Below, piece by piece: positions 10,980 through 15,601 of a stretch of 25,646 bases of DNA. This DNA is from Myxococcales bacterium (GTDB taxonomy: Bacteria > Myxococcota > Polyangia > Polyangiales > Polyangiaceae). Made by a program: the position numbers and the translations under genes. Position 1 is the first letter of the stretch, and each line of letters opens with the position of its first letter. The notes beneath the pieces are model-generated. The model had not been told where the DNA came from. It was given only the letters and a program-made list of their open reading frames with translations, and did no database searches. Location: contig PLXW01000034.1 in assembly GCA_003151595.1 (NCBI GenBank), positions 1 to 25,646 on the forward strand, given 5' to 3'.

Positions 10980-12149
10980 CTAGAGCCCCATCAGCTTCGC
11001 CACGTAGTAGCGAAGGGTCTCGGTCGTCCCGCCGCCGATCCGGAAAAGCCGGTTGTCGCGCCACATCCGGGCGATCGGGTACTCCTCGATGTACCCCGCG
11101 CCGCCGTGGAACTGCAGGCACTGGTCGGCGATCTCGGTGCCGATTTCGCCGACGAAGATCTTCGCCATCGAGATGAGCTTCACCGTCTCCATCTCGACCG
11201 GCCCCTTCTTGACGTACTTGTCCTCGTTGTACGCCTCGGCGGCCTTGTAGGTGAGCGCGCGGCCCGCCTCGAGCTTCGAGTAGAGGTCGACGAACTTGTG
11301 CTGCCAGTACTCGCGCTTGATGATCGGCTTGCCGAACGCCTTGCGATCGCGTCCGTAGGCGACGCTCATGTCGAGCGTGAGTTGCAGCCCGGCGCACGCG
11401 CTGGTGCAGGCGATGATGCGTTCGCTCTGGAAGTTTTGCATGAGGTACATGAACCCCATGTTCTCTTCGCCGAGCAGGTAGCGCTTCGGCACGCGCATGT
11501 CTTCGAACGCCAGCTCGGCGGTGTCGCTCGAGTGGTTGCCGATCTTCTTCAGCTTCTTCGAGACGCTGAACCCCTTGGTCTTCGTCGGCACGAGGAAGAA
11601 CGAACAGCCGTGCGCGCCGGCGTCGGGGTTCGTCTTCACGAGGAGCGTGACGAAGTCGGCGCGCGTCCCGTTCGTGATGTACGTCTTCGCGCCGTTGATG
11701 ATGAAGTCGTCGCCGTCCTTCTTGGCCCACGTCTGGATGCCGGCGACGTCGCTCCCGGCGTTCGGTTCGGTGACGCCGAGCGCGACGATCTTCTCGCCGT
11801 GGATCGCCGGCGTGAGGAACTCGGCGATCTGCTCCTTCGTCCCGAGGTCGCTGATGACGGGCGTCGCCATGTCTCCTTGAACGAGGAGACCCATCGTCAC
11901 GCCGGCCATCCCTCCGCGAACGAGCTCCTCGCTCTTCGCGACGGTGAACCAGAAGTCGCCGCCGCCGCCGCCGTGCTCTTCGGGGTAGTGCGCGGCGAAC
12001 ACGCCGAGCTCGCCGGCGCGCTTGAACACTTCGTTCGGAAAGTTCTCCGCCTCCTCCCACGCGTCGACGAAGGGATAGAGCTCCTTCTCGGCGAACTTGC
12101 GGACGGTGGCGCGGAACTGCTGGTGCTCTTCGCGGTAGGGGCTCGGCAT
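10980..12149 (-). CDS. Acyl-CoA dehydrogenase (long-chain/isovaleryl type by active-site position)
   Basis: A 389-residue FAD enzyme that introduces a trans-2,3 double bond into acyl-CoA, passing electrons to electron-transfer flavoprotein. The signatures are present: VALGVTEPNAGSD (122-134) and QFHGGAGYIEEYPIARMWRD (346-365). At the C-terminus, where medium-chain enzymes have the catalytic Glu in YEGT, this protein has IGGGTTE. The base is then expected in the QSERIIA segment (Glu243), the position used by long-chain and isovaleryl-CoA dehydrogenases. The ATG at 12149 begins the family homology; the frame is open upstream, but that part is not family-like. A 26-bp inverted repeat lies directly before the ATG. 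Substrate chain length is not certain. Confidence 0.95.
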   Translation of the reverse strand: MPSPYREEHQQFRATVRKFAEKELYPFVDAWEEAENFPNEVFKRAGELGVFAAHYPEEHGGGGGDFWFTVAKSEELVRGGMAGVTMGLLVQGDMATPVISDLGTKEQIAEFLTPAIHGEKIVALGVTEPNAGSDVAGIQTWAKKDGDDFIINGAKTYITNGTRADFVTLLVKTNPDAGAHGCSFFLVPTKTKGFSVSKKLKKIGNHSSDTAELAFEDMRVPKRYLLGEENMGFMYLMQNFQSERIIACTSACAGLQLTLDMSVAYGRDRKAFGKPIIKREYWQHKFVDLYSKLEAGRALTYKAAEAYNEDKYVKKGPVEMETVKLISMAKIFVGEIGTEIADQCLQFHGGAGYIEEYPIARMWRDNRLFRIGGGTTETLRYYVAKLMGL

Positions 12150-12175
12150 GAGATGATTCGTACACGAAACATCTC
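12150..12175 (-). promoter_or_regulatory. 26-bp inverted repeat abutting the acyl-CoA dehydrogenase start codon
   Basis: The outer arms GAGATG (12150-12155) and CATCTC (12170-12175) and the inner arms TTCGT (12157-12161) and ACGAA (12164-12168) are symmetrical about a central AC, with one A:A mismatch between the tiers. It ends right at the ATG (12149). Its shape fits an operator for a dimeric TetR- or FadR-type repressor; as RNA it would form a hairpin that covers the ribosome entry region. No Shine-Dalgarno sequence is visible apart from it. Confidence 0.55.
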
Positions 12176-12712
12176 GCCGGGCAAGCCTCGACCGGCTTGA
12201 AAAGCAGTCGATCGCGGGCGTGATCACCGCGTGCTCGACCTCGTCTCATGGGAAATGCGACGGAGAAATCTGGTCTGCAAGGCTGCCGGAACCCCGACGC
12301 CTCGCCTGCCTTTGCTCAAGACGGTGAGCTCCAGCATCGCCCTCGGCATAAGCCTGGAGCGGACCACGTCACTCGCGAGGATCCTTCTGCGTTTTCCGAT
12401 CGATGCAGCGTGCGCCATCGGGGGCGTTCAATCGAACGCGAAGGCCGTGCGTGAGCAAGGCCTCCCCTTTCGCGCTCTCAAAGAGAGCGTGCGCCGCGCA
12501 GAGCGATCGCTTCTACGCAAATGGAGTGGCTTAGAGCGCGCTCGCCGTTCGCGCGCGGCGCAACGGTCACCGTAGTGCCGTCACGCGCGTTCGAGCGCGT
12601 TCCCCAAGCCCCTCACGAGATCTACCTCGTCGCCGGCCGGGCCGATCCCATGCGAACTTGCCGCGGGTCTCAGTTTATCGGCCGGCTCGGGTATCGATCT
12701 CGTTGCGGCGAA
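12176..12712. other. Gene-free region with a cluster of three small hairpins
   Basis: No convincing protein gene in about 540 bp. A 114-codon frame at 12231-12575 has no ribosome site and no recognisable protein pattern. Three consecutive inverted repeats lie at 12425-12490: CGTTC/GAACG (12425-12438), AGGCC/GGCCT (12442-12463) and CGCTCTC/GAGAGCG (12473-12489, 3-nt loop). They could be part of a small non-coding RNA or a termination region; no promoter or T-tract supports either. The rest shows nothing recognisable. Confidence 0.35.
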
Positions 12713-12790
12713 CTATTTCGCCTTCTTCTTCGCCGTCTTCTTCGCAGCCTTCTTCGCAGTCTTCTTCGCAGCCTTCTTCTTCGCAGCCAT
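12713..12790 (-). CDS. Nested candidate histone-H1-like mini-protein (25 residues), in frame with the regulator's tail
   Basis: ATG 12790 lies inside the regulator gene, in frame, and is preceded by AAAGGGGAG with 6 nt spacing, one of the strongest ribosome sites in the window. It would start MAAKKKAAKK and consist only of Met, Ala, Lys and Thr, in AKK/AAKK heptad-like steps of the H1 type. The sequence before it (GETN in the long frame) looks like a normal leader read through. Two readings: internal initiation gives a separate short histone-like protein, or an ancestral small histone gene was joined to the regulator by loss of an intervening stop. Confidence 0.5.
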   Translation of the reverse strand: MAAKKKAAKKTAKKAAKKTAKKKAK

Positions 12791-13456
12791 GTTCGTCTCC
12801 CCTTTCTTATGTTTCGTTTTCGAGGTGTTGCTGAGCCGGGTCTTGGCTTTCGCCGCGACCTTCATCTTGGAGGCGGCCGGCTTCTTCGCAGCGGGCGCGC
12901 TCTTCTTCTTCGTCGTCTTCTTGTTGCTCGCGGTGAGGCTCTTGGCGCTCGCCGTCTTCTTCATCTTCTTCTTCGAGGTAGCGCCCGCGGCCTTCGCCGC
13001 CTTCGCCGGTCCCGACACTCCGTTCACGTTCTTCGTCGGTCGTTGGACTGCGTCGCGCTGAGTGGCGCGAGCCGAGAGGGCCGCCTTGACCTTCTCGTCG
13101 AGCTCTTCGAAGTCGAACGGCTTGTCGATGTACGCATCCGCACCGTACAGCGGACTTGTCATCTGGTTCAAATTCTCGCCAATGCCGGTGAGCATCACGA
13201 CGCCCGTGTGAGCGAGCGCGACGTCCTCTCGGATCTTGCGGCAGACTTCCCAGCCGCTCATGCCGGGCATCATCACGTCGAGCACGACGAGGTCCGGCAG
13301 GTGCTCCTTCGCGAGCTTCCACGCTTGCTCACCGTCGCTCGCTTCGATGACGACGAGCTTCGGGTCGTCGAGCGTCTTCAGGTGCTGCGCGACCAACTCC
13401 AGCATGCTCGGTTCGTCATCAGCGACGAGCACGACGGGGTTCGATGACGGGAGCAT
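12713..13456 (-). CDS. Response regulator with a long histone-H1-like Lys/Ala tail
   Basis: A 247-residue protein. Residues 7-125 are a complete receiver domain: acidic pocket ADDE (12-15), phospho-acceptor Asp60 in VVLDVMMPGMSG, Thr90 (VVMLTGI) and Lys112 (DKPF). Instead of a normal output domain it continues from about residue 140 as a 105-residue Lys/Ala/Ser/Thr tail with many KK and AKK steps, like bacterial and eukaryotic H1-type histone tails, which bind DNA without sequence specificity. The start was set at ATG 13456 because GGAGA lies 10 nt upstream; ATG 13471 is an alternative. The last 25 residues match an independent small gene (see next entry). No histidine kinase gene is close. 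Phosphorylation-dependent control of chromatin-like compaction is an attractive but unproven role. Confidence 0.88.
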   Translation of the reverse strand: MLPSSNPVVLVADDEPSMLELVAQHLKTLDDPKLVVIEASDGEQAWKLAKEHLPDLVVLDVMMPGMSGWEVCRKIREDVALAHTGVVMLTGIGENLNQMTSPLYGADAYIDKPFDFEELDEKVKAALSARATQRDAVQRPTKNVNGVSGPAKAAKAAGATSKKKMKKTASAKSLTASNKKTTKKKSAPAAKKPAASKMKVAAKAKTRLSNTSKTKHKKGETNMAAKKKAAKKTAKKAAKKTAKKKAK

Positions 13457-13679
13457 GTGGTGATTCTCCATCTCGCGATCGTTCTTCGTCAAGCACTTGA
13501 TGATCGCACGTGATCGATTCTTCGATCGCGATCGCACACGCACTCACGCGATCGATCGGTCGAAGAGAGCGCGCGATGGAGTGCGATGGAGTGCGCAAGC
13601 GATCGACGAAGTGAAGTGCGTGTAGATGATCCGGATCGCGAATCGCGCTGTTTTGAAGCGTGTTCGTGCGTCGCGCGGA

Positions 13680-14105
13680 TCACTCGTCGCGGAACTTCGT
13701 CGCGACGCGCGAGGTCGACGAGACGAGCGCTTTCGACGCCGCGACGTACTTCACCATCGTCGGCATGTGCCCCTTCGTGAGCTTCAGCTTTCCTTGCATC
13801 ATCCCCTTCGTGGGATCGAGCTCACCCTTGATGACGGTCTTCCAGAGCGCGTACGAGGCCACGATCACGAACGCGGCGGCCTCCGCGTCCTTCGCCGGGA
13901 TCAACTTGCAGTCGCGACAGACGCCGCGATCGAGGTCGAGCCACATCGCCATGTCCTCGTCGATCCGCAGCGCGGGGTCGGCCTTCACGACCATCGCCAC
14001 GACACCGTGCGTCCAGTCCTTGCCGGCCGTCTTGTACGCGTCGTTCGCGTTGATGGCGTCCTTGAACGCGGCGGTCCACTCGTGCGACGGGAAATCGTAG
14101 GCCAT
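13680..14105 (-). CDS. SCP2-type sterol/lipid-carrier domain protein
   Basis: A 141-residue soluble protein matching the SCP-2 sterol-transfer fold: an N-terminal helix WTAAFKDAINANDAYKT, beta strands (GVVAMVVKADP, MAMWLDLDRGVC), the segment AAFVIVASYALWKTVIKGEL, and the diagnostic GMMQGKLKLTKGHMPTMVKY before a final helix. The family binds lipids or acyl-CoA in a hydrophobic tunnel. There are two Cys residues in a CRDC motif (about residues 62-65), unusual for the family, which could bind metal or form a disulfide. The ATG at 14105 has AAAGGAAC 7 nt upstream. The stop lies 223 bp from the response-regulator start; that gap holds a GATCGA/TCGATC hairpin (13512-13527) and a 10-bp tandem duplication (13573-13592) but no gene. 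Confidence 0.85.
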   Translation of the reverse strand: MAYDFPSHEWTAAFKDAINANDAYKTAGKDWTHGVVAMVVKADPALRIDEDMAMWLDLDRGVCRDCKLIPAKDAEAAAFVIVASYALWKTVIKGELDPTKGMMQGKLKLTKGHMPTMVKYVAASKALVSSTSRVATKFRDE

Positions 14106-14263
14106 GACTCGTTCCTTTCGAGGAGCGAGGCGATAGCACGAGCGCGTGGCTCGGGCACTCGCGATGGCGATGACGCGCTCGGGCGATCGGCGCGTACGAA
14201 ACCGGAACGAAACGCGGTCGAGATGGACGGAGAGCGCGACGCGCGCTTGAATGATTCGAGCCG

Positions 14264-15601
14264 ATGACCCTCCCGAAGACTCACCCAGGCCCGCACGTTC
14301 ACCGCGGCGAGAAGCGTCTCGAAGCGGTGCTCGACTTCGTCGCCTTCACCGCGCGCCCGATGCCGCTCGTCACGCTGCTCGACGACGCGCCGCGGAGGAT
14401 CGCCTCGATCTTCGGCGCCGACGTCTGCTCGCTTTACTTGCTGGAAGGCGAAGGCGACGAGCTCGTCATGCGCGGCAACGTCGGCTTCGCGCGCAACGCG
14501 CTGGGGCAAGTGCGGCTTCAGATCGGCGAAGGGATCACGGGCGAAGCGGTCGAGTACCTGCGGCCGATCTCGGCCGACTTCGCCAAGACGCACGCCTCGT
14601 ACAAGCACTTCGAAGAGCTCGGCGAAGATCGCTTTCCGGTGTTCCTCGCGGTTCCGATCCGCGGCAAGTCGGGTCCGCTCGGCGCGGTGGTCATTCAACG
14701 CGCAGAGACGCCGTTCCCCAGCGCCGACATCGAGCTGCTCACGGCGCTGGGCGCGCTCATCGCGGCGGGCATTCGTCACGCGGAGCTGATCGACTCCAAG
14801 CGCGAGAAAGGAATCCCGCGTCGCGCAGCCGGCGGAGGGACGCGCAAGGTCACGCTCCCGGGGCGACCGATGTGCCCGGGTCGCGCGCTGGGCGCCATCG
14901 CCGCGCTTCGACGACCGGCGCAGCGCCCGACCGACGCCGAGCCGAAGCGCGATCCGGACGCTGACGTGCGCATGCTGCGATCGGCCTTCGACGTGGCGGA
15001 GAAATCGATCCGCGGCCTCAGCGAGCGCGCGCGACAGCTCGACCTCGGGCGCGACGCGGCGTTCCTTTCGACGTACGTCGAGATCCTGGGCGACGCGCGC
15101 TTCCGCGAGCGGGCCAGCGAGCTGGCGGCCGAAGGGATGGGGCTCACGCAAGCGCTCGATCGCGTCGCCCGCGACGTGACGCGCACCGCGCACTCGATCA
15201 CGCGCGATCCGTTCCTCGAAGAGCGCGCGAAGGACATCGAAGACCTGTGCGACGCCCTCACGATGCTCGCCGCGGCCGACAAGCGGGCCGAGCTGCCGTC
15301 GAAGGCGGTGATCGTGGGCGACGGGCTCACGGTGTTCGACCTGCTCATCTCGGCGCGCGCGCACCCGGTCGGCGTCGCGCTGACCGAGCGCGCCTCGGGG
15401 CCTCGCACGCGATCGCTGCTCCAGCTGCTCGGCGTTCCGTCGGTGGTCGGCGTGCAGGGGCTCTTCCGCTGGGCGTCGGACGGAGACATCGCGCTGGTCG
15501 ATGCCGATCACGGCCTCCTCGTGATCAATCCGTCGAAGAGCGAGATTTCCGACCTGCGTGAATTCAAGCGGAGCACGTCGATCCCTCCGACCGAGACCTG
15601 A
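14264..15601 (+). CDS. GAF domain fused to a truncated, His-less PTS enzyme I-like module
   Basis: A 445-residue cytoplasmic protein. Residues about 20-180 form a GAF sensor domain (SIFGADVCSLYLLEGEGDEL, GEGITGEAV, FLAVPIRGKSGPLGAVVIQ). After a linker, residues about 200-440 resemble the N-terminal part of PTS enzyme I/PtsP: the GRPMCPGRALGAI start, the helical HPr-binding-type segment (DPFLEERAKDIEDLCDAL) and a swivelling phosphohistidine domain ending GVPSVVGV...DGDIALVDADHGLLVINP. Where enzyme I has TSHT with the active-site His, this protein has PRTR: the His is replaced by Arg. The PEP-binding barrel is missing entirely. It is therefore probably a regulatory or sensory relic of PtsP rather than a phosphotransferase. 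The ATG at 14264 has no strong ribosome site. Confidence 0.85.
   Translation: MTLPKTHPGPHVHRGEKRLEAVLDFVAFTARPMPLVTLLDDAPRRIASIFGADVCSLYLLEGEGDELVMRGNVGFARNALGQVRLQIGEGITGEAVEYLRPISADFAKTHASYKHFEELGEDRFPVFLAVPIRGKSGPLGAVVIQRAETPFPSADIELLTALGALIAAGIRHAELIDSKREKGIPRRAAGGGTRKVTLPGRPMCPGRALGAIAALRRPAQRPTDAEPKRDPDADVRMLRSAFDVAEKSIRGLSERARQLDLGRDAAFLSTYVEILGDARFRERASELAAEGMGLTQALDRVARDVTRTAHSITRDPFLEERAKDIEDLCDALTMLAAADKRAELPSKAVIVGDGLTVFDLLISARAHPVGVALTERASGPRTRSLLQLLGVPSVVGVQGLFRWASDGDIALVDADHGLLVINPSKSEISDLREFKRSTSIPPTET

Follow-up and report, generated by a model that had tools for sequence, protein, structure and literature searches.

Does a single response regulator gene of a Myxococcales bacterium encode two proteins, i.e., a receiver domain with a histone-H1-like tail and, from a start inside the same reading frame, a free histone-like peptide? 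The question is raised by a gene on the minus strand of contig PLXW01000034.1 (assembly GCA_003151595.1); the whole stretch of 25,646 nucleotides that was analyzed is referred to here as the window. Comparison of this gene with its relatives suggests that it probably gives rise to two same-frame proteins, a DNA-tethered phosphorylatable receiver and a free H1-like peptide, with their ratio and the phosphorylation of the receiver setting occupancy.

A receiver domain with a histone-H1-like tail

The features of the full-length gene are as follows.

12713..13456, minus strand: response regulator with a Lys/Ala-rich C-terminal tail (P0001), 247 aa (open reading frame and translation, homologue search)
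13088..13432, minus strand: receiver domain, residues 9-123, with D60, T90 and K112 (PF00072, E 9.3e-25; AlphaFold fold)
12716..13030, minus strand: histone-H1-like Lys/Ala tail, residues 143-247, predicted to be disordered (translation; AlphaFold pLDDT)
13466..13469, minus strand: GGAG, candidate ribosome-binding site for the full-length protein, at a spacing of 9 nt from ATG 13456 (read from the sequence)

The 247-aa protein combines the PF00072 fold with the phospho-acceptor Asp, the Thr/Ser and the Lys of a receiver. An earlier note, made from the DNA alone, had described this receiver as complete, with Asp60, Thr90 and Lys112, and these three residues were invariant in an alignment of 32 sequences. 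Using the same alignment, AlphaFold2 predicted a folded receiver, in which the ten-residue blocks of residues 11-90 and 111-130 had pLDDT values of 88-95 and those of residues 91-110 had values of 57 and 76. In a Pfam search of the 247-aa protein, PF00072 was the sole match besides a YL1 match under threshold, and no winged-helix output was found; no other output family was above cut-off either in Pfam or among the 25 curated-model matches listed (of 95). All 25 listed models fell far under their cut-offs, the best of them (NCBIfam) reaching 90.7 bits against a cut-off of 296.2. The missing winged-helix output and the sub-cut-off model scores argue against an OmpR/PhoB-family transcription factor. 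The source label "OmpR family" is carried by many of the relatives in the three protein listings described below.

The output is instead a Lys- and Ala-rich tail of about 105 residues, and the translation of residues 143-247 agrees here with the earlier note. Residues 145-247 have pLDDT values below 50, so that the tail is of the Lys/Ala-rich disordered type represented by H1-like proteins such as Hc1/Hc2 and AlgP. No curated H1-like family model was matched in Pfam by the whole protein or by its 25-aa piece described below, or in NCBIfam by the 25-aa piece; the relative P0096 carries PF07382, which we take to be the Hc2 model, in its precomputed annotation. In five other relatives (L029, L032, L033, L035 and L050), the tails contain long Asp/Glu-rich runs followed by Lys/Ala runs, and these outputs are predicted to be strongly polyampholytic.

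Between 12500 and 13700, the sole sigma-70-like match (13463-13492) precedes the full-length start, and no internal promoter before 12790 was found among such matches in this interval. This match ends 6 bases before ATG 13456 and the full-length mRNA might therefore be nearly leaderless there. The sole terminator-like match near the gene (12707-12722) is on the plus strand. An Arg- and Leu-rich open reading frame of 308 aa on the plus strand (12521-13447), antisense to the regulator, is probably a shadow of the Lys/Ala codons and not a gene.

An in-frame start within the tail

Two further features lie near the 3' end of the gene.

12713..12790, minus strand: nested in-frame open reading frame of 25 aa with its own ATG, candidate mini-histone MAAKK...AKKKAK (homologue comparison)
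12797..12805, minus strand: internal Shine-Dalgarno-like site AAAGGGGAG, codons K218, G219 and E220 (sequence; K-G or a near equivalent mostly conserved)

Codon 223 of the regulator is an ATG (12790), and the 25 codons from there read MAAKKKAAKKTAKKAAKKTAKKKAK, with Lys at 13 of the 25 and a stop that is common to the full-length frame. The DNA ahead of this ATG reads AAA GGG GAG ACG AAC; GGGGAG ends 6 nt ahead of the ATG and, together with the preceding Lys codon, forms AAAGGGGAG. The window gene therefore contains an in-frame start and a ribosome site inside an open reading frame, as a gene within a gene would. The earlier note had reported the ATG, the 25 codons and the 6-nt spacing, all of which match the sequence and its translation, and had argued that such a site must either be used or be the relic of a separate gene. 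The start has indeed been conserved for long, but the strength of the site proved unexceptional in such a purine-rich gene.

The regulator family and its gene neighborhood

Scanning of genome contigs identified 323 relatives of the regulator, of which the best 80 loci were retained. Protein searches with P0001, P0020 and L021 as queries provided the best 120 of 1871, the best 120 of 3728 and the best 120 of 2741 matches, respectively, representing 266 distinct proteins, the window's own among them. Long tails were present in 131 of the 146 proteins listed with P0001 and P0020 (frame-shifted ones counted) and in all 120 listed with L021; many more distant loci encode receivers of about 120 aa with no tail. 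The earlier note had raised the doubt that a stop in the true sequence might separate receiver and tail and make the fusion an error; the fusion is real in many genomes. The following genes of the window are conserved neighbors.

13680..14105, minus strand: SCP2-like gene, upstream of the regulator (PF02036)
14264..15601, plus strand: GAF and PEP-utilisers_N gene (domain matches, related loci)
10980..12227, minus strand: acyl-CoA dehydrogenase gene, downstream (domain matches, related loci)

The order GAF/PEP-utilisers_N, SCP2, regulator, acyl-CoA dehydrogenase recurs in loci with the nested start and in loci without it. Among 81 loci, matches to the SCP2 gene were found in 25, to the GAF gene in 21 and to the dehydrogenase gene in 27; several of these dehydrogenase matches were weak ones elsewhere in the locus. 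Based on this common gene order, nested and non-nested genes were taken as orthologues. Orthologues in the same gene order can be without the nested start and yet retain the Lys/Ala tail, and since many orthologues do without it, the nested start is not essential to the regulator family. The gene order across 10980-15601 of the window is kept in many myxobacterial MAGs, which may point to a functional connection of the regulator with lipid metabolism.

Conservation of the nested start

An in-frame MAAKK was found in all 120 proteins listed with L021 (best 120 of 2741). Of the 146 proteins listed with P0001 and P0020, 55 carry MAAKK in their tails; a further 76 have tails that lack it, and the remaining 15 proteins are too short to be scored. 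Lys-Gly precedes the nested Met at positions -5/-4 in 107 of the 120 L021-listed proteins; among the 13 exceptions, it lies one codon earlier in 10 and two codons earlier in 1, and 2 are without it. In the 55-protein set, 51 proteins have K at -5, 49 have G at -4, and three rows carry KKEDTK, which could spell AAGGAGGA (inferred codons). The earlier note had made the nested gene depend on conservation of the internal start and site in relatives, and it is borne out by these counts, with K-G mostly kept upstream. Any other Met is rare in the tails, with 11 in 9370 residues of the L021-listed set and 18 in 6066 residues of the 146-protein set.

In the receiver tree, the window falls within a 50-row clade (SH-aLRT 92) in which 38 rows are nested. 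Of the other 12 rows, 7 are truncated, 3 have tails in a shifted frame (P0041, P0043 and P0045) and 2 seemingly stop mid-tail (P0042 and P0046); no evidently intact tail without the nested Met was found in this clade. Just outside of it, within a 54-row clade, P0094 has a tail and no nested Met. Over 145 selected receivers (65 nested and 80 non-nested), the nested label changes only 4 times and a single clade of nested rows was not rejected (p-AU 0.493); this selection omits P0041, P0042, P0043, P0045, P0046, L028, L039, short-tail rows and duplicate receivers, and also the loci after L023 except L088, five-sixths of the 120 L021-listed proteins, L012 and L018. When truncated and frame-shifted rows are given separate labels and the MAAKK of L039 is scored as nested, 14 label changes are counted, which is an inflated number. 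Conservation of the nested start over large sequence distances makes coincidence or a short-lived relic unlikely, and its long retention argues that the start is still used.

In three close relatives (P0041, P0043 and P0045), the tail no longer follows the receiver in the same frame. The last residues of P0043 are those read in the window's other frame immediately ahead of the internal ribosome site, and P0041 appears to stop a short way ahead of this site. If these frameshifts are real and not assembly errors, the mini-histone would be a separate gene there.

Signals in the DNA around the nested start

DNA was available for eight nested genes (the window, L016, L018, L019, L020, L021, L022 and L023), among which the window is the sole member from its own clade. 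AAAGG is found ahead of the nested ATG in all eight. The Lys codon of the site is AAA in 8 of 8, whereas in the rest of these genes AAA makes up 34 of 247 Lys codons (about 0.002 when the three clades count once each, as the sequences are related), and the Gly codon of the site is never GGC. Within each tail, the positions that are more structured than the mRNA from -30 to +30 number 105 of 108 in the window, 80 of 83 in L018, 86 of 89 in L019, 90 of 93 in L020, 81 of 85 in L023, 71 of 82 in L021 and, most weakly, 53 of 69 in L016; L022 has no dip in structure at the nested start (33 of 74 tail positions), so that a dip is seen in 7 of the 8 genes.

Shine-Dalgarno matches were compared over 53 Lys-rich tails for which DNA was available, each from a different locus (the window and 52 of the 80 retained loci); the nested L018, whose start escaped the motif used, is not counted as nested in this comparison or in the receiver trees and is counted in the eight-gene DNA tests. 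At least 5 exact Shine-Dalgarno letters before an in-frame ATG were found in 7 of 7 nested tails versus 3 of 46 others (L029, L031 and L038), and 6 exact letters in 5 of 7 versus none of 46, the window having 5 (AAAGG). The non-nested tail of L039 has a chance MAAKK with AAGG only. By hybridization energy, the nested site is equalled at 5 of the 120 tail positions of the window and at 37 of 96 in L018, and the whole-gene Shine-Dalgarno rank of the nested site is not special. Moreover, the anti-Shine-Dalgarno match is equalled or beaten by 17-75% of synonymous recodings and is significant in none of the eight genes (0.17-0.75). Because recodings are often as strong, a case for selection at the DNA level would have to be carried by the AAA codon and the structure dip.

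Scanning 317 genomes of the class for AARGG-N10-ATGGCNGCNAARAAR gave 9 matches, i.e., 7 nested genes and 2 unrelated ones. A pattern with K-G-E fixed had no match in any of 183 genomes belonging to one order, an indication that these genomes do not include the window's own clade. No conserved stop-and-restart arrangement was found, as stops in the alternative frames before the start are not common to the eight genes. In a different lineage, L031 has KGKLPM at a comparable place, with AAAGG 10 nt before the ATG, and L043 has KGKAPR; judging from these residues, a second internal start may have been gained or lost in this lineage.

Alternative explanations for the nested start

The nested start could be the relic of a fusion, in which a small H1-like gene and its ribosome site were joined to the regulator by stop loss and the internal start is now dead. 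The nested Met does border a module of uniform AKK repeats. In clade D (L016, L019, L020 and L023), it falls at the beginning of the Lys-rich tail, the region before it is not Lys-rich and the nested open reading frame (39-62 aa) makes up approximately the whole histone-like tail; outside clade D, a Lys-rich linker intervenes and the nested frame is mostly 22-33 aa long. This layout would be consistent with an origin in which a receiver gene was joined by a small H1-like gene that brought along its ribosome site. In addition, a stand-alone Lys-rich open reading frame, which may or may not be related, lies in one non-nested locus.

L109, 2989-3255, minus strand: stand-alone H1-like Lys-rich open reading frame of 88 aa, MAAKKTAKK..., with GGAGG upstream

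This open reading frame lies about 0.75 kb past the non-nested orthologue and is convergent with it. However, a start that is dead is difficult to reconcile with a tree of 120 proteins built without the nested region, in which each of the three columns before the Met changes 19 times and the Met itself does not change; as expected for a gene within a gene, the start is conserved beyond the surrounding sequence. All 120 listed proteins retain the Met, as do all tails in the inner window clade that are evidently intact. Furthermore, no Lys-rich open reading frame was found in 17 gaps between regulator and dehydrogenase, and no unfused copy was found directly behind the regulator on either strand of the 80 loci (first Met per open stretch tried). 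A relic with a dead start is therefore considered improbable.

Slightly less probable still is a protein-level motif, KGExxMAAKK, that would be kept for cleavage or binding of the tail and not as a translation start. In line with such a motif, the AAKK after the Met shows no changes in the same 120-protein tree and is as invariant as the Met itself, and a stretch of about 20 residues before the Met is also recognizable in the window clade. The residues before the Met nevertheless vary by clade (KGETK, KKEDTK, KGKKT, KGTRRI and KGSKR), yet all of them can encode a purine-rich ribosome site. Residues of the IVLFWY group make up 54 of 240 at positions -2/-1, versus 168 of 3240 over the preceding 27 residues, and this excess suggests a loosely constrained spacer. 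A fixed ribosome site followed by a free spacer would explain the pattern better than a protein motif.

Coincidence, i.e., Lys, Gly and Glu codons that resemble a ribosome site with an ATG placed by chance, is highly improbable even though synonymous recodings are often as strong and one chance MAAKK occurs (L039), as it was already disfavored by the conservation counts (120 of 120 and 55 of 146 listed proteins, no changes at the Met) and as, among the 46 control tails, 5 Shine-Dalgarno letters ahead of an in-frame ATG are seen in 3 and 6 letters in none.

Comparison with known systems

The preferred reading, in which the nested start is used, has counterparts in other bacterial genes. The short forms of HrcQ/SctQ are produced through internal in-frame translation, and both these and Cas11b are structured complex subunits, whereas the candidate product of the window gene is a predicted disordered Lys/Ala peptide. 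Cas11b is the shorter product of internal in-frame translation from cas8b, according to the available text of PMC11899642. The Rpn genes (RpnL/RpnS) are described in the available text of PMC10327210 as having an internal in-frame start and ribosome site near the 3' end, from which a separate C-terminal small protein is made; changes at K240, E241 and M244 abolished the small protein, and the internal product blocks the full-length one, while the two products of Cas10d/Cas11d work together (PMC10327210). The window gene resembles the Rpn genes in its candidate internal in-frame start with a ribosome site at the 3' end, but in Rpn the tail is an antitoxin and is attached to a nuclease, and the window gene, known from sequence alone, encodes a receiver with a histone-like tail.

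With regard to the tail, the DNA-binding region of CarD has been likened to H1/HMGA; CarD is an RNA-polymerase-binding protein and is not known to have a receiver; it resembles the window protein as a myxobacterial regulator with an H1-like region and differs from it in the receiver. CarD of Myxococcus xanthus is described as such a regulator in the available text of PMC4374960. AlgP and PhaF have an N-terminal module and a long disordered Lys/Ala/Pro tail for which binding to DNA or to the nucleoid has been proposed (PMC9239181, text available in part). The window protein shares this arrangement of an N-terminal module with a long disordered Lys/Ala-rich tail, but in the available text of PMC9239181 the N-terminal module is not described as a receiver and a nested start is not mentioned. 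OmpR/PhoB proteins have the same receiver type, PhoB being the nearest curated model among the 25 listed (of 95), and differ in having the winged-helix output that the window protein lacks.

In the literature searched, which covered few subscription journals, no report of a receiver with both an H1-like tail and a nested start was found. A term search of the available text of a survey of myxobacterial two-component systems (PMC4603909) gave no mention of histone or lysine. Each of the two features, an internal in-frame product and an H1-like tail, is known separately; it is their union with a receiver for which no precedent was found in this literature.

A possible role in nucleoid occupancy

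The proposal of the earlier note that one gene makes two products has good comparative support, while translation from 12790 is what we infer from sequence. Its further proposal, two-component control of nucleoid compaction, is a hypothesis. Initiation at ATG 13456 would give the phosphorylatable receiver with its disordered H1-like tail, and the charge of this tail would keep the receiver on the nucleoid; by analogy with AlgP and PhaF, the full-length protein would most simply be a nucleoid-tethered receiver. Internal initiation at ATG 12790, from the AAAGG site in an unstructured purine-rich stretch, would give a free Lys/Ala peptide, the nested frame being 22-39 aa long in most lineages and up to 62 aa. 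The free peptide would coat DNA and add charge-neutralizing H1-like material, and may occupy the same DNA either in competition with the tethered receiver or in the gaps around it. The ratio of the two products, together with phosphorylation of the receiver, would then set the amount of receiver on the DNA. A more specific and more doubtful possibility, which we put forward tentatively, is a two-component chromatin switch, in which an H1-tail receiver and its nested mini-H1 would tune nucleoid occupancy through their ratio and phosphorylation, and not through promoter-specific binding.

Gene callers give one product per frame, and nested in-frame starts are therefore easily missed. Similarly, many relatives in the databases are labeled merely as OmpR-family, although no winged helix was found in the protein of the window. 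Should the short peptide be produced, these genes would represent a conserved way in which a group of soil bacteria couples phosphorelay signaling to a histone-like protein by means of a single gene, and would provide a tractable test of response regulators acting on the whole chromosome.
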